A stretch of 44,140 bases of DNA. Origin: Candidatus Zixiibacteriota bacterium (lineage in GTDB: Bacteria; Zixibacteria; MSB-5A5; JAABVY01; JAHJOQ01). The notes under the pieces were generated by a model, which was given only the letters and a program-made list of their open reading frames with translations, did not search any database and was not told where the DNA came from. Within the stretch, counting starts at the first letter, position 1. Each line of letters opens with the position of its first letter. Shown here piece by piece: positions 21,793-30,247 of the stretch. The stretch covers positions 1 to 44,140 of the forward strand of contig JAHJOQ010000065.1 in assembly GCA_018820315.1 (NCBI GenBank), in the 5' to 3' direction. The translations under genes were made by a program, and so were the position numbers.

Positions 21793-23229
21793 CTATTTGT
21801 TTCGGTTTAGCAGAGAGCGAATGTGCGAGATCATGTCGCCGCGAGGAATTGTGACCTGGACATCTTCAGCCTTGAGCCACTCAGCTCTGTCCTGAACATC
21901 CTTCGATAGTCCACGACCAGCTACAAGGTCCTTGATTGTAACCTGCCCCTTATCAAACTCATCCGAGCCGCAAATCACTGCGACAGGTATATCGAGCCTA
22001 TCGGCGTACTGAAGCTGTTTCGGGATTCTGCGATTATTCCCAAGGAAGACCTCGACCATGAACCCTTCATTACGAAGCTGAGAAGCCATTTCGAAGTAGT
22101 CGGCCATTCTTCCCTTGTCCATGGTGGTAACAATGACCTCCGCACAGCTTTTCCTGACTTCAAGCGCCTCAAGTTTCAGGAGTGCTGCCAACAGTCTGTC
22201 GACTCCAATCGAAGAGCCCGTGCCCGGCATCGGCTGGCCGGAGAATCGCGATACAAGATGATCGTACCGTCCACCAGAGAATACAGATCCGTAATCGGGA
22301 AGATCGAGCAGGTATGTCTCGAATACCGGACCGGTGTAGTATCCAAGGCCCCGGACAATCGTGAGATCAACTCGCGCCTTCGCCGGATCGGCACCCATCC
22401 CATCAAGGTAGCGGCCAATCTCCCGCAGCTCCTCGAATCCGTCTGCAGCCATCTCAGACGCGCCGAGCAGATCCGCAGCATTATCGATCTGACTCAATCC
22501 GGCTGCCTGCGCAATGTCAAGGAACTTCTCCAGCAAAGCAATCTGAGGATCGGGAAAACCGAGCCCCGGTATGACGTCGCCCGATTTGTCTGTTCTGCCC
22601 GGACCAAGCTCCATGATGACAGCATCACGTCCCTGTTTTTCTAACTTATCGAGAACCCGGAATACGTCCGGAGCAGTTTCGGGTGAGATTCCGGCAAACT
22701 GAGCAAGACCGTTGAGGATCTTCCGATTTGAGTATCGCACTTCGAAATTCTCGATCTTGAGGCAACTCATCGTCTCGGCCATGACAGCTATTATCTCAGC
22801 GTCGGCAGCGACGAGCGATGTCCCAACAATGTCGATATCGAACTGCAGAAACTCTCTGAATCGCCCCGGACCCGGCTTGTCGACACGCCAGACCGGTGCG
22901 ATCTGGTATCGCCGAAATGGCGTCGGCAGTTCGCGATTGGCTGCGACAAACCTCGCTAACGGTGCAGTGAGATCGAACCTGAGTCCCATCTCAACCTCAT
23001 CGGGACCGATGAAATTGAATATTTGCTCCTTGTTCTCCTTGCCGTAGTCGGCACCGAACAGTGTGGTCAGGAACTCAAGAGCAGGGGTCTGCAGCGGAAG
23101 ATAGCCATACCTTTCAAATACTGATCGGGTTTTGTCGATCAGAACCTGCCGGGTCAGCTCATCCTCCGGGGGATAGTCCCTGAAACCCTTCAGAAGCTTA
23201 GCTGGGACTTTTTTCGCTTTGTCAGACAT
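21793..23229 (-). CDS. hisS: Histidyl-tRNA synthetase, divergent type
   Basis: Class II synthetase that charges tRNA-His. The open frame reaches 23298, but that would run into the tRNA gene; ATG 23229 (MSDKAKK) with GGGA upstream is the start, giving 478 residues, longer than the roughly 420 of E. coli. Motif 2 reads RVDKPGPGRFREFLQFD (115-131), where typical bacterial enzymes have RxERPQxGRxRxFxQ, so the Gln that contacts the acceptor end is replaced. The histidine-A motif is RGLGYYTGPVFE (293-304) rather than RGLDYYxxTVFE. These differences match the form I recall from several alphaproteobacteria. The gene follows tRNA-His by 29 nt, probably on one transcript. Confidence 0.95.
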   Translation of the reverse strand: MSDKAKKVPAKLLKGFRDYPPEDELTRQVLIDKTRSVFERYGYLPLQTPALEFLTTLFGADYGKENKEQIFNFIGPDEVEMGLRFDLTAPLARFVAANRELPTPFRRYQIAPVWRVDKPGPGRFREFLQFDIDIVGTSLVAADAEIIAVMAETMSCLKIENFEVRYSNRKILNGLAQFAGISPETAPDVFRVLDKLEKQGRDAVIMELGPGRTDKSGDVIPGLGFPDPQIALLEKFLDIAQAAGLSQIDNAADLLGASEMAADGFEELREIGRYLDGMGADPAKARVDLTIVRGLGYYTGPVFETYLLDLPDYGSVFSGGRYDHLVSRFSGQPMPGTGSSIGVDRLLAALLKLEALEVRKSCAEVIVTTMDKGRMADYFEMASQLRNEGFMVEVFLGNNRRIPKQLQYADRLDIPVAVICGSDEFDKGQVTIKDLVAGRGLSKDVQDRAEWLKAEDVQVTIPRGDMISHIRSLLNRNK

Positions 23230-23258
23230 GGCAATCCCTGGCGGCCCACAAAACATAA

Positions 23259-23332
23259 TACTGGGGGGGAGGGTCGAACTCCCGACCTCCTGATCCACAG
23301 TCAGGCGCTCTAGCCATCTGAGCTACCCCAGC
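23259..23332 (-). tRNA. tRNA-His (anticodon GTG), without encoded G-1
   Basis: 74-nt cloverleaf read from the minus strand: acceptor GCTGGGG with CCCCAGT (six Watson-Crick pairs plus G1-U72), T8 A9, D-stem GCTC/GAGC with loop AGATGGCTA (includes U20a), anticodon arm CCTGA-CTGTGGA-TCAGG with anticodon GTG, 5-nt variable loop, T-arm GGGAG-TTCGACC-CTCCC. The base before G1 is T rather than the G-1 normal for tRNA-His, and position 73 is A rather than C. CCA is not encoded. It lies directly upstream of hisS. Confidence 0.95.
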
Positions 23333-24797: not shown

Positions 24798-25124
24798 TCA
24801 CCTGAGATCATCGTGCATGGCCGTCCCGAATCCCGGCCCGAGAAAGATTGCATTCAGCAACAGACGCGCTGTACCATGAAAGTACCCGCGAAAAGTGGGA
24901 TCGTCGGCAAACAGAATCAACTGGCCTTTACCCATCCCTTCGCAGGTAGCGTACGCTGAACTTGCCCAGCGCTGCCTCGCCTCCGGCCAGAGCAGCCCAG
25001 ATAGTCGCAGCTCTTTGTATGGTTTGAATCTCACCGGTGTCTCGAACTGCAGTGACAGTATTAGTATTTCCCGGTCGAACTCTATCGGCCGGGATTTTCT
25101 TTCTTCTCGAAGTATGTTACCAGA
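24798..25124 (-). pseudogene. C-terminal remnant of an M14-like zinc carboxypeptidase family protein
   Basis: Reading the minus strand, an open frame without a stop runs from about 25124 to 24798 and contains LRLSGLLWPEARQRWASSAY and then GKGQLILFADDPTFRGYFHG followed by TARLLLNAIFLGPGFG. This matches the conserved C-terminal tail of large secreted M14-type peptidase proteins as I know them. Only about 100 residues remain and the catalytic domain is missing. The frame lacks a ribosome site and its upstream part overlaps the end of the cobA-hemD gene, so this looks like a decayed gene whose 5' part was deleted. It fills most of the gap between apgM and cobA-hemD. Confidence 0.6.
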
Positions 25125-26623
25125 TCATCGATCATAGCGGGAATTGTGTGAATGCGGGATTCCACTGCAACCTCGAAGCCTTCCGATGCTATCATCTTGG
25201 TCGTTGATGGTCCAATCGAGAATATCGGTACTGAAGCAAAGAGTTCGTGCGCCTCTTCACGAGTCAGATTTTCCAACACCCCCTTGAATGTCGAACCACT
25301 GGTGAAAATCGCTGCATCCGGCGGATATACGAACAGCTTCTCTTTGAATCCCTCAGGCCACTTGCAGAGGTCTGTATCGTAGACGGTGATCGGCAGGACT
25401 TCCGCTCCGGCATCGGTCGCCATCAACTCCACAGTATCACCAGCGAGTCCACCTCGCACTCGAACCAGAACACTGCCTTTTAGATCGTGAGATGAAATCA
25501 ACTCTCTGGCGAAAGCCGTCGCCGTTGCCTCTTTGGGCACGAAGTCGACTCTGATATGCCAATTGGCGATGGCCTCGGCAGTCGCACCTCCTACGGCAGC
25601 AATCCTGTACCCTGCCAAACACCGCAGATCGCCAAACTTATCCATAAGCTGCTGCATGAAGTAGCGCACACCATTTTCGCTGGTAAATACAAGCCAACGG
25701 TTGCTGTTACTGATGGCAGCAAATCTCTGCCAGGCATCGTCATCATGATAGTCGGAAGTCGTTATCGATGGATACGGCAACACTTCGGCGCCGAGCTCCC
25801 TCAGGCTCTGGTACATGTCGCGCGCCTGATCAGGAGATCGAGTAACGATCACACGCTTGCCCAAAAGTGGTCTCTGTTTCACCCACGAGAGACACGGCTG
25901 CAGATCAACCACCTCACCTATCACGAAAATCGAGGGCGATCTGACATGATGCTTCTTGACGACGGCAGGCAGGTCCTTCAATGCAGCGCTGAAGTATCGC
26001 TGGCTCGGTAGAGTGCCCCTCTCGATAACAGCGGATGGTTTGTCTGGCGACATTCCAAAATTGATCAGCCTCGTCGCGATTGTTTCTATCTCGCTTACGC
26101 CCATGTAGATAATGATCGTTCCATTCTCAGCTTTCGCGATCCACTCCCATGGCACCGTAGAAACAGCCTTATCCTTCGCCTTGTGTCCCGTAACAAATAT
26201 CACAAAGGATGCTTTCTCTCTATCAGTGCAGGGGATGCCGACATACGCCGGAGCGCCTACTCCTGCGGTGATACCCGGAATTATCTCGAAGTCGATGCCA
26301 TGCTTTCTGAGATATTTCGCCTCTTCACCCCCTCTGCCGAAAACCAAAGGGTCACTGCCCTTAAGACGAGCGACATTCTTTCCTTCATTGGCAGATTTGA
26401 CGAGAAGCTCGTTGATTTCGTCTTGCGGGATAATATGCTTGCCATCCCGTTTGCCGACATAATGCTTCTCCTGACCGGCAGGCAACGCGACGACGATCTC
26501 ATCGGAGACCAGATTATCGTAGAAAACGACGTCGCAGGTCTGAAGCAAGCGCCATCCCTTCAGAGATATCAGTTCAGGATCACCCGGTCCCGAACCAATC
26601 AGATATACTGTGCCTTTCTTCAT
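25082..26623 (-). CDS. cobA-hemD: Fused uroporphyrinogen-III C-methyltransferase / uroporphyrinogen-III synthase
   Basis: 513-residue two-domain enzyme of siroheme synthesis. The N-terminal half (about 1-250) is SUMT: VYLIGSGPGDPELISLKG, the P2 region VARLKGSDPLVFGRGGEE and PAYVGIPCTDRE. The C-terminal half (about 255-505) is HemD, beginning GKRVIVTRSPDQARDM and ending with SIGPSTTKMIASEG. HemD closes hydroxymethylbilane to uroporphyrinogen III, and SUMT methylates it twice to precorrin-2. It follows the Met8-type gene by 18 nt, so precorrin-2 oxidation and iron insertion are encoded alongside. The function fits cofactor supply to the dsr siroheme enzyme on the same strand. Confidence 0.95.
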   Translation of the reverse strand: MKKGTVYLIGSGPGDPELISLKGWRLLQTCDVVFYDNLVSDEIVVALPAGQEKHYVGKRDGKHIIPQDEINELLVKSANEGKNVARLKGSDPLVFGRGGEEAKYLRKHGIDFEIIPGITAGVGAPAYVGIPCTDREKASFVIFVTGHKAKDKAVSTVPWEWIAKAENGTIIIYMGVSEIETIATRLINFGMSPDKPSAVIERGTLPSQRYFSAALKDLPAVVKKHHVRSPSIFVIGEVVDLQPCLSWVKQRPLLGKRVIVTRSPDQARDMYQSLRELGAEVLPYPSITTSDYHDDDAWQRFAAISNSNRWLVFTSENGVRYFMQQLMDKFGDLRCLAGYRIAAVGGATAEAIANWHIRVDFVPKEATATAFARELISSHDLKGSVLVRVRGGLAGDTVELMATDAGAEVLPITVYDTDLCKWPEGFKEKLFVYPPDAAIFTSGSTFKGVLENLTREEAHELFASVPIFSIGPSTTKMIASEGFEVAVESRIHTIPAMIDDLVTYFEKKENPGR

Positions 26624-26641
26624 TCCGGTTTCCGATTCGCC

Positions 26642-27286
26642 TCATTCGTCATCGTTAAGCATATCGTTAAGCTCGCTCTCGATTTCGTCCGGGGATTTCA
26701 TCTTGATGATCGCATTCCAGTCTGCGGAAAGAAATCTCTCGAAGCATTCCAGCCTCTTCTGTGCATCGTCTTTGTAGCGAGCTTGCACTTTCTTGCGAAA
26801 AGTATGCGCGTACGTGGATATTTTGCCCCAGTGCTTGGGGAAAATGTCGTCGAGAATCCCGCGCAGATGTCCGGCAAGAAAAGGCGCCTTGCCATCTGTC
26901 GACACACTCACGGCCAGATGCTCCCGCTTGACCACGGCGGGAAAAATGAACGTGCAGAGCGCCGGATTGTCGACTACATTTACAAGTACACCGGCAGATT
27001 TGCAGTCCTCGAATACTTGTTCGTTTACCGCTCGATTATCGCAGGCGGAAATCACCAAGCCATAATCCGCTGCTTCTGATGGATTATAATTGCGCTTCTC
27101 CAGCTTTACTCTTCCGGATGTGGCATAGTAATCGATCTTGTCGGTGACCTCGGGCGCAACGACTGTAATGTCTGAATTGTAATCCAGGAGATTGTCGATC
27201 TTTCTCAAGGCAATGCCACCGCCACCAACTACAAGGACACGGCAGTCTTCGAGGGATACGTTTATCGGCATGTACTTTGAAGTCAT
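26642..27286 (-). CDS. Precorrin-2 dehydrogenase / sirohydrochlorin ferrochelatase (Met8/CysG-N type)
   Basis: 214 residues, the usual size for the stand-alone bifunctional enzyme. NAD-binding motif VLVVGGGGIALRKIDNLL (about 17-34), the acidic strand end TVVAPE, and the catalytic-region Asp106 in LVNVVDNPALC, matching the Asp that serves both oxidation and ferrochelation in Met8p/CysG. It completes siroheme from precorrin-2. GGAG before the ATG; 24 nt after hemA and 18 nt before cobA-hemD, forming a compact tetrapyrrole operon. Confidence 0.93.
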   Translation of the reverse strand: MTSKYMPINVSLEDCRVLVVGGGGIALRKIDNLLDYNSDITVVAPEVTDKIDYYATSGRVKLEKRNYNPSEAADYGLVISACDNRAVNEQVFEDCKSAGVLVNVVDNPALCTFIFPAVVKREHLAVSVSTDGKAPFLAGHLRGILDDIFPKHWGKISTYAHTFRKKVQARYKDDAQKRLECFERFLSADWNAIIKMKSPDEIESELNDMLNDDE

Positions 27287-27310
27287 ATCTTTTCTCCGTT
27301 CTGTGTCTCT

Positions 27311-28525
27311 CTACTTCTCCGGTTCAGTCTCCGCCCTGACCTTCATCGCCAGCAGCCTGTTGATCAGTCGGCGCGAAGCCTTATCGACAGCATACTGCAT
27401 TTCGGGACTCAGCTTCTTGATGACCGGCCCGAATTCCTCGTGCCTGATCGCTTCGAATGTATCACCAAATCCGTTGTACAGCGGCTCATGAAGCACATGA
27501 CTGTACCAGTACATGAACTCATCCAGCCTGCGCTCGATGATAGCCTCAGCCTCCGGAATGGATTCCAGGACTTGCTTCTGATTCTGTTCGACGAATCTCC
27601 TGATGTCTTCAAGATCGAGAATCTCGATATTAGTAAGCTCATCGATATCTGATTCGACATCTCTCGGGACGGCCAGATCCATGACAATCCGCCTGCGACT
27701 ACTGCCGGCGACACCGGCGGCACGCATCATCTCCTTCGTGATGATCGGTACTGGTGAGCTTGTGCAAGTCACGACAACGTCTGCGCGCCCGAGCAGCTCC
27801 GGCAGTTCATCGAGTGTGTGAGCGGACGCAGCGAACTTCTCAGCAAGTGCAACAGCCTTTTCCCGAGTCCGATTTGCAAACATGAATCTGCACTGATCGT
27901 CGCCTGAGAGACCCGCAGCCGCTATGGCTATCATTTGATTGACGCCGATAAACAGGACGGCAGGGTTCGTGTTCGCTGCGATCTTTGATTTCAAGAGACT
28001 TACAGCCGTGCCACTGACGGAGCAGGCTCCCTTGCCGATTTCGGTGTCCGATCTTACTGCCTTGCCGACGCGGAATGCCTGATGAAACAGGCGATGGATA
28101 ATCTTGCCGGCAGACTTCACCGAGCAGGACGAGCTGTAGGCGTCCTTCAATTGCCCAACAATCTGATTTTCGCCTATGATCATCGAATCCACTCCTGCCA
28201 CCACTCGAAACAGGTGCTCGGCCGCCTCACGACGCTTCATTGTGTAGAACTTATCCAGAGCATCCGCGATGTGTTGATTCTTGAACTGCGAATAGAAGCT
28301 GAGAAGGATGTCTGCCGGTTCTGCCGATTTCTCGAGGACAAGGTAGAATTCAACTCGATTGCATGTGGACACGATCACTGATTCGAGCACACCCGGCAGC
28401 TTGCCGAGAATTGCATTTGCTTCGGCGATCGAATCGCGATCCACCTGCAACGGCTCTCTGTCAGTCAACTCTGAAGTCTTATGGCTGATACCACATACTA
28501 TCAGTTTCCAGCTTGCCATTGCCAT
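27311..28525 (-). CDS. hemA: Glutamyl-tRNA reductase
   Basis: First committed enzyme of C5 tetrapyrrole synthesis: reduces Glu-tRNA to glutamate-1-semialdehyde with NADPH. 404 residues with the N-terminal signature CGISHKTSELTDRE (11-24), catalytic Cys55 in IVSTCNRVEFY, GENQIVGQLKDAY (about 117-129), the NADPH-binding region and a C-terminal dimerisation helix. Two ATGs are possible (28525 or 28519). It sits 39 nt after the CoA-disulfide-reductase gene and is followed by the siroheme genes. hemL, hemB and hemC are not in the window. Confidence 0.95.
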   Translation of the reverse strand: MAMASWKLIVCGISHKTSELTDREPLQVDRDSIAEANAILGKLPGVLESVIVSTCNRVEFYLVLEKSAEPADILLSFYSQFKNQHIADALDKFYTMKRREAAEHLFRVVAGVDSMIIGENQIVGQLKDAYSSSCSVKSAGKIIHRLFHQAFRVGKAVRSDTEIGKGACSVSGTAVSLLKSKIAANTNPAVLFIGVNQMIAIAAAGLSGDDQCRFMFANRTREKAVALAEKFAASAHTLDELPELLGRADVVVTCTSSPVPIITKEMMRAAGVAGSSRRRIVMDLAVPRDVESDIDELTNIEILDLEDIRRFVEQNQKQVLESIPEAEAIIERRLDEFMYWYSHVLHEPLYNGFGDTFEAIRHEEFGPVIKKLSPEMQYAVDKASRRLINRLLAMKVRAETEPEK

Positions 28526-28564
28526 TGAGTCAGCATCTCCAATTAGCTTCTTGTATTATCCAGT

Positions 28565-30247
28565 TTACGACAGCGAAGCCTGTGTGCCGCCACCAATCAT
28601 GGTTACATTTTCAAAGCCCGCATGCCTCAGAATGAGTGAGGCCTGATAAGATCTTGGTCCTCTCCGACAGACTATTCGAATTTCCCTGATTCTGTCAAGC
28701 TCATCAATGCGTAGTCTCAGCTCACCGAGAGGAATGTTCACCAGAGTACAACTTCCCGATACCGGCCACGGTTCCGAGGAGAATTCTTCTGTCTCGCGAA
28801 CATCGAGAAATACAACGTTATCGGCCGACTTGTCAGCCGGGCCGACGATCTGCAGACCCTTCTCTCGCGCGATTGCCAAAGCCGCCATCTGGTGGAGCGG
28901 ATCAAGCACTTCGGAATATGGCGGCGCATAGCCATGCTCAAATGCCAGCAGATCATGAACCGATGCCCTGCGCTGCAGGAAAGACGAGAACACATCGATC
29001 CGCCTGCAAATGTCACCTGCGCCGACAGCCTGCAACCCCAGCAGCCTCTCATCATCGGAAGAGTAAACAAGCTTCACGCTGAAAGTACCAAACTCCGGAT
29101 AGTAGTCAGGCTTGTCTGGGAAGGCTCCCCAAACCGCTTCAGCTCGAAAACCGGCAGCCTCAGCAGCCTTCTGAGAAAGACCAACCGCACCAACGTTTGT
29201 ATCAAATATCTTCACAAGAAACGCACCAACCACACCCTTAAACTCAGCGTGATTTCCGGCCAGATTTTCCGCTATCACCCGTCCGTGGCGATTGGCCAAC
29301 GATCCCATCGGAATGTATATCTGCGCGCCGGTAATCAAATGATGGGATTCGACACAGTCGCCCCCGGCAAATATATCCGGATCGCTTGTGCGCATGTGAG
29401 AGTCGACAACGATACCACCCCGATCGCCTATTCTCAGACCACAATCACGTGCCAGCGAAGTTTCGGGACTGACTCCGAGACAAAGAAAAACGTAATCGCA
29501 TGAGATGCTCTCTTCATTCTGCAGAAGGACTACCGGATTCCCGTCGCCGTCCAGATCAATGCGCTTGACTTGCATACCAGTCTTGATCGTGACATCCTGC
29601 CGCATCATTTCGCGCTCGGCTATCGCTGCCATCTCGGGATCGAGCACGTATGGAAGAATCTGGTTTTCTTTCTCGACAAGCACCGTCTCGATACCCCAGA
29701 GTCCCGCTGCGGCTTCCACAACTTCGCATCCGATGAATCCACCTCCGACTACCACAACTTTCCCGACTTGCCCGGTTTGGGCAGCTTCACGGAATGCCAC
29801 TGCATCATCCGGCTTCGTAAACGAACTGATCCTGGGACTCTCCGCCACGGGGAATGGAGGCTGCATCGGCGCCGCACCGGTGGCGATCACAAGCTTTCCA
29901 TAAGCGTGCTCAAGTACTTCACCAGTGGCAAGCATCTTAACAGCGGTCACCTTCTTTTCTCTGTCAATACGGATAACCTGGGCACCCGTGACAACATCGA
30001 AGCCTTTTGTGTTCTTGAAAAAGTCGGCGTCACGCTGCACATCATAGGAGGTCGCCGTCAGTTTCTGGAAGCTGTCGATATCACCCGACGCAAAATATGG
30101 CATACCACAGGTCGCATACGATACCAGACTCTCTCTCTGAAAAAGCGTAATCTTCACATCGGGCAACCTTCGCGCCAACGTAGCGGCAGTCTTTGGACCT
30201 GTGGCGACTCCGCCTATTATCACAAAATCTGATCTATTAACACTCAT
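28565..30247 (-). CDS. CoA-disulfide reductase-type flavoprotein fused to a rhodanese domain
   Basis: 560 residues. The N-terminal part is a pyridine-nucleotide disulfide oxidoreductase: FAD motif IIGGVATGPKTAATLARR (10-27), single redox Cys47 in YATCGMPYF, NAD motif VVVVGGGFIGCEVVEAAA and a second FAD motif in IFAGGDCVE. The last ~90 residues are a rhodanese domain with FLDVRETEEF and the active loop CRRGPRS (C527). Known fusions of this type (CoADR-Rhd, NADH-dependent persulfide or polysulfide reductases) reduce CoA disulfides, per- and polysulfides. Position immediately after dsrP suggests a role in sulfane sulfur handling with the Dsr system. Confidence 0.9.
   Translation of the reverse strand: MSVNRSDFVIIGGVATGPKTAATLARRLPDVKITLFQRESLVSYATCGMPYFASGDIDSFQKLTATSYDVQRDADFFKNTKGFDVVTGAQVIRIDREKKVTAVKMLATGEVLEHAYGKLVIATGAAPMQPPFPVAESPRISSFTKPDDAVAFREAAQTGQVGKVVVVGGGFIGCEVVEAAAGLWGIETVLVEKENQILPYVLDPEMAAIAEREMMRQDVTIKTGMQVKRIDLDGDGNPVVLLQNEESISCDYVFLCLGVSPETSLARDCGLRIGDRGGIVVDSHMRTSDPDIFAGGDCVESHHLITGAQIYIPMGSLANRHGRVIAENLAGNHAEFKGVVGAFLVKIFDTNVGAVGLSQKAAEAAGFRAEAVWGAFPDKPDYYPEFGTFSVKLVYSSDDERLLGLQAVGAGDICRRIDVFSSFLQRRASVHDLLAFEHGYAPPYSEVLDPLHQMAALAIAREKGLQIVGPADKSADNVVFLDVRETEEFSSEPWPVSGSCTLVNIPLGELRLRIDELDRIREIRIVCRRGPRSYQASLILRHAGFENVTMIGGGTQASLS

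Follow-up and report, generated by a model that had tools for sequence, protein, structure and literature searches.

A Zixibacteriota tRNA-His without G-1 and its adjacent histidyl-tRNA synthetase belong to a multi-phylum family that appears to have moved as a gene pair

G-1 has been regarded as an almost universal feature of tRNA-His, and bacteria have been described as losing it in a single event, in alphaproteobacteria (PMC3937112). The window analyzed here, by which the whole stretch of 44,140 nucleotides is meant, carries a tRNA-His(GUG) with T at position -1 as its only tRNA gene (ARAGORN), followed by a gene for histidyl-tRNA synthetase (HisRS). The question raised by this locus is how such a tRNA is charged and whether the pair shares an origin with that of the alphaproteobacteria. 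We consider it highly probable that the locus is the only histidine-charging system of its organism, consisting of a G-1-less tRNA-His and a HisRS that reads it, probably on one transcript, and that it belongs to a multi-phylum family whose genes moved jointly more than once. The features of the locus are as follows.

23259 to 23332, minus strand: tRNA-His(GUG) with G1-U72, A73 and U20a, CCA not encoded (ARAGORN and direct reading)
23333, minus strand: position -1 of the tRNA-His, a T, so no G-1 (direct reading)
23296 to 23298, minus strand: GUG anticodon of the tRNA-His (ARAGORN)
23230 to 23258, minus strand: spacer of 29 nt separating A73 of the tRNA-His from the hisS ATG, probably within a shared transcript
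21793 to 23229, minus strand: hisS, encoding a 478-aa histidyl-tRNA synthetase of the A73/G-1-less type (TIGR00442, 355.8 bits, cut-off 286.75)
22849 to 22887, minus strand: motif 2 loop RVDKPGPGRFREF, residues 115-127, usual form [ED][RK]PQ[KA]GR
22564 to 22608, minus strand: clade-specific insert LGPGRTDKSGDVIPG of the insertion domain (residues 208-222), a small beta hairpin in the model
22318 to 22353, minus strand: histidine-A motif RGLGYYTGPVFE, residues 293-304
21844 to 21900, minus strand: clade-typical C-terminal segment (residues 444-462) that includes Arg448, Trp451 and Gln458

On the minus strand, the tRNA-His begins with G1 at 23332 and ends with A73 at 23259, and direct reading agreed with the first-pass annotation on T at -1, G1-U72, A73 and U20a. 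Folding of the RNA alone gave a cloverleaf-like acceptor, T and anticodon arm and added nothing beyond ARAGORN. A canonical bacterial tRNA-His/HisRS pair was ruled out by T at -1 and A73 in place of G-1 and C73. The marks of the alphaproteobacterial-type system were found in both partners, namely U72, A73 and no G at -1 in the tRNA and Gly for Gln in motif IIb of the HisRS (KPGPGR). U20a, which had also been taken to mark the alternative tRNA, is ordinary and not discriminating because it is carried by 50 of 58 distinct G-1/C73 tRNA-His genes as well.

The predicted structure of the window HisRS (pLDDT 88.7) matches HisRS structures, and its motif 2 and histidine-A were present as first described. 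Their value as markers did not hold up. Gly at the motif-2 Gln position is not diagnostic alone, since it also occurs in the C73 enzymes of the Planctomycetota G151, G192 and G271, and RGLGYY, though characteristic of the main Zixibacteria group and family f9, gives way to RGLDYY in several A73-type relatives. Promoter-like sites were located upstream of the tRNA-His and none within the spacer; tRNA-His and hisS are likely to be co-transcribed. Beside hisS, haem biosynthesis and redox genes occupy 25082-30247 on the minus strand, encoding a fusion of HemD with a tetrapyrrole methylase, an NAD-binding protein, a glutamyl-tRNA reductase and a rhodanese-domain pyridine nucleotide-disulphide oxidoreductase.

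The source genome is a 3.78-Mb MAG rated 100% complete with 2.3% contamination, and its assignment to Zixibacteriota bears out the earlier impression that the organism is not an alphaproteobacterium. Reading of all 47 Rfam tRNA hits left the window gene as the sole tRNA-His of the genome, and one HisRS was found. A second hisS and a canonical tRNA-His were sought in this genome without success, and the Thg1 family gave no match at E<=10. The last result bears on the possibility that a Thg1-like enzyme supplies G-1 post-transcriptionally and that the HisRS still needs it, as eukaryotic A73 tRNA-His gains its G-1 in this way (PMC6471195). With no Thg1 family match, and with a HisRS that lacks the motif-2 loop Gln and groups with G-1-independent enzymes, we give this explanation hardly any credence. 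Among the other tRNA calls of the genome, locus L042 (G000:C155:19118-19263) holds two short tRNA-like genes next to each other, one called Ser(tga) and the other Gln(ttg). The former has no long variable arm, and the genome also has normal genes for both tRNAs; the pair possibly derives from a mobile element.

The pairing of tRNA class and HisRS type was followed in 126 Zixibacteriota genomes, which were scanned with C73 and A73 tRNA-His patterns; as in the other phyla compared, most of the genomes were MAGs. A73 tRNA-His occurred in 64 and C73 in 29 of the 126 genomes, both occurred together in 0, and every A73 match had the U72 A73 ending. Similarity to the window enzyme separated the HisRS of these genomes into classes, and the tRNA class goes with the HisRS type. 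The window combination is not a matter of chance, since it recurs in dozens of related genomes. The RpoB tree implied at least 6 changes of HisRS type, and the tRNA followed in 5 of 5 supported independent pairs, a number at which the sign test has a floor of p 0.0625 within Zixibacteriota. In the Planctomycetota checked, genomes with a HisRS of the clade had U72 A73 in 9/9 cases and those with another HisRS had C73 in 14/14. U72 A73 was further found in 6 of 53 matching Krumholzibacteriota genomes and 5 of 94 matching WOR-3 genomes, samples that were classed by tRNA pattern with the HisRS read in some genomes only.

The strict identity set is broken at several points inside the clade, by U73 in family f18, C1-G72 in G132 and G1-C72 in G129. 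The f18 tRNA-His genes (G118 L181 3325-3401; G117 L316 1158-1234) have G1-U72, U73 and G at -1 in genomes with an A73-type HisRS, and U73 is, as read from these genes, a variant of the identity set. In G132 (isolate SJ870, L146), a tRNA-His with C1-G72, A73 and T at -1 accompanies a clade-member HisRS with RYDKPEPGR. Two further arrangements were observed. The 0.8-Mb genome G137 encodes a HisRS with a canonical-like KPQKGR loop and no insert (L057 2941-4437), together with a tRNA-His with A73 and T at -1 located downstream of hisS. G007 and G009 (families f5 and f6; L182, L184) have canonical G-1/C73 tRNA-His and a third Zixibacteria HisRS type, which groups with Prevotella and human HARS.

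The base at -1 is G in all 58 distinct G1-C72/C73 tRNA-His genes, while the 77 distinct G1-U72/A73 genes have T in 61, C in 7, A in 6 and G in 3. The 45 other tRNA calls of the source genome have T in 27, C in 14, G in 3 and A in 1. Because the -1 bases of the G1-U72/A73 genes resemble the leaders of other tRNAs in the genome, position -1 looks like ordinary leader. The prevalence of T, which is complementary to A73, would also be expected if RNase P kept U-1 and U-1 paired with A73 in the manner of G-1:C73, giving the HisRS a longer acceptor stem to use. This seems unlikely, as 16 of the 77 genes have another base at -1, T is the usual -1 base of other tRNA genes here, many of them with A73, and the tRNA-His of the alphaproteobacterial relatives has no extra nucleotide (PMC4284800; PMC6471195). 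For the window organism we instead infer a mature 5' end at G1 and charging without G-1. RNase P would cut at G1, as it does in ordinary tRNAs, and would leave a mature end at which G1 pairs with U72, and CCA would be put on enzymatically. The HisRS would read G1-U72, A73 and the GUG anticodon rather than G-1:C73, its KPGPGR motif-2 loop presumably replacing the PQ[K/A]GR loop that reads G-1:C73.

The first-pass annotation had proposed that this is the same alternative pair as in alphaproteobacteria, which the HisRS phylogeny upholds. In a tree of 76 enzymes, all A73-type HisRS formed one clade of 50 with support of 100/97 (UFB 100), seven alphaproteobacterial enzymes were placed inside it, and the window enzyme lay within this clade and outside the canonical enzymes. 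A second tree, in which long branches were thinned out and further members added, recovered the clade at 100/99 and nested the alphaproteobacterial enzymes in a 19-row group of Planctomycetota and the Zixibacterial families f9 and f15. The alphaproteobacterial sequences were taken only from named plasmid and chromid records, human HARS was the one eukaryotic sequence, and Acidobacteria, like most phyla, were outside the sample. Besides the alphaproteobacterial enzymes, the clade takes in those of Zixibacteriota, Planctomycetota, Krumholzibacteriota and WOR-3.

In the alignment of the 50 A73-type and 26 other enzymes, the insertion-domain insert GxGRxDxSGDxxxG was present in 50/50 and 0/26, respectively, and Gly211, Asp214 and Gly217 of the insert were invariant in 50/50. 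It is accompanied by the C-terminal segment, whose Gln458 occurred in 49/50 A73-type enzymes and 0/26 others. The common insert and the strict covariation with U72/A73 join the single clade as grounds for regarding the two systems as the same. That the insert, modelled as a short hairpin, might take part in tRNA binding is a guess.

Convergence, favoured in one paper for the likeness of the alphaproteobacterial and eukaryotic rules (PMC5370408), would require G-1 to have been lost independently in Zixibacteria and alphaproteobacteria. A single clade with an insert common to all members speaks against this, and placing the alphaproteobacterial HisRS outside the rest of the clade was rejected by the AU test (p 1.2e-8), so that we regard independent loss as most improbable. 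The grouping with eukaryotic HisRS expected after transfer of a eukaryotic enzyme to bacteria was not observed: human HARS, the one eukaryotic enzyme compared, lay outside the clade, and its joining with the alphaproteobacterial enzymes was rejected by the AU test (p 1.3e-5). With the alphaproteobacterial enzymes nested in a multi-phylum HisRS clade, the alphaproteobacterial rule is, on these trees, one branch of a multi-phylum bacterial family.

The linked arrangement of the window had been read as a possible unit of joint transfer. tRNA-His was located directly upstream of hisS on the same strand at 41 of 101 A/U73 loci, which is not a frequency because some loci were counted twice and some were chosen because of hisS, and at 0 of 63 C73 loci. 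In one odd genome (L057/L154, two loci), it lies downstream. G122 is placed by RpoB among genus mates whose pair is canonical. Its tRNA-His matches that of G090, a member of another family, at 72/74 positions and those of the genus mates G120 and G121 at 49-51/74, and its HisRS groups with those of G090, G117 and the Krumholzibacteriota genome G345. The G122 unit is located on a 514-kb contig of a 100% complete genome with no canonical pair elsewhere, while the G090 unit could be contamination because its contig is 4 kb long and its MAG 79% complete. Comparison of the flanks of the G122 unit with the retrieved stretches of G121 and G120 gave no match, and the empty site was not located.

Family f15 is placed beside the canonical f16 by RpoB. 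Beyond the family itself, the best match to its tRNA-His is that of the planctomycete G246, at 69/74 for G106. The f15 HisRS is placed among those of Planctomycetota and alphaproteobacteria; the f9 HisRS likewise falls among Planctomycetota. The HisRS of G410 (Krumholzibacteriota) pairs with that of G129 (Phycisphaerae) at 100/100. In G071/G072, where the G071 HisRS is of planctomycete type, and in G117, the HisRS alone was exchanged; the tRNAs resemble those of their own families and tRNA and hisS are unlinked. The unit was therefore not always moved whole, and these exchanges suggest that enzymes of the clade are able to work with one another's tRNAs. G122, G345 and f15 combine a foreign tRNA with a foreign HisRS, which supports joint transfer; the earlier proposal now has positive cases, and tRNA-His and hisS appear to have moved together between phyla.

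A purely vertical history, in which Zixibacteria inherited the A73 system from their common ancestor and the canonical genomes regained G-1/C73 with no unit transferred, has in its favour that the main group (f1, f2, f7, f8, f10) tracks family lines in the HisRS tree. It is nevertheless very unlikely, given that the AU test rejected all A73 Zixibacteria HisRS as a single clade (p 1.5e-7), that the f9 and f15 enzymes fall among Planctomycetota, and that the f15 and G122 tRNAs match foreign tRNAs and not those of relatives. Transfer remains our preferred account. We think it reasonably likely that a two-gene unit with the whole identity rule passed from one phylum to another on several occasions, displacing the canonical pair in a single step, and that the alphaproteobacterial enzyme came from the same bacterial pool, the likeliest source being Planctomycetota-like and not eukaryotic. 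The direction of transfer and the rooting are taken as provisional.

The G-1-less trait has been held to have arisen once in bacteria via a eukaryote-derived HisRS (PMC3937112), while another study noted no support for such a transfer and proposed convergence instead (PMC5370408). The present data do not fit either proposal well, and the wider bacterial HisRS clade suggests a third answer for the origin of the alphaproteobacterial enzyme. The sequences place the alphaproteobacterial-type rule in at least four further bacterial phyla. A short literature search found no report of the G-1-less tRNA-His trait outside alphaproteobacteria, which is not proof of absence; the breadth of the A73-type family and the paired transfer appear unreported. 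It has been argued that tRNA identity rules are resistant to transfer (PMC3937112). Linkage of a tRNA with its synthetase provides a route round this barrier, and G122 makes the idea testable. Diverse HisRS/tRNA pairs independent of G-1:C73 could, in addition, be useful as orthogonal pairs.

Among known systems, the alphaproteobacterial pair (Caulobacter, Rhizobiales, Rhodobacterales), whose HisRS reads G1:U72 and A73 with varying weight on the anticodon (PMC7590224; PMC9976931), shares with the window pair the absence of G-1 and the presence of U72, A73, the motif-2 Gly for Gln, the HisRS clade, the insertion-domain insert and the C-terminal segment. It differs in that the window pair belongs to Zixibacteriota and has tRNA-His directly upstream of hisS, whereas hisS in the annotated alphaproteobacterial records examined is followed by the gene for the ATP phosphoribosyltransferase regulatory subunit and has no adjoining tRNA-His; the enzymes are 40-43% identical. 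Eukaryotic cytosolic HisRS has a similar fold and also works with an A73 tRNA-His, but there G-1 is added by Thg1 (PMC6471195), and human HARS, which has no insert, is not part of the clade. The canonical bacterial pair shares the enzyme family (TIGR00442/PF13393), fold and anticodon with the window pair, which differs in lacking G-1, C73 and the motif-2 Gln and in carrying the extra insert, and canonical Zixibacterial HisRS align with the window enzyme in segments of only about 25-37% identity.
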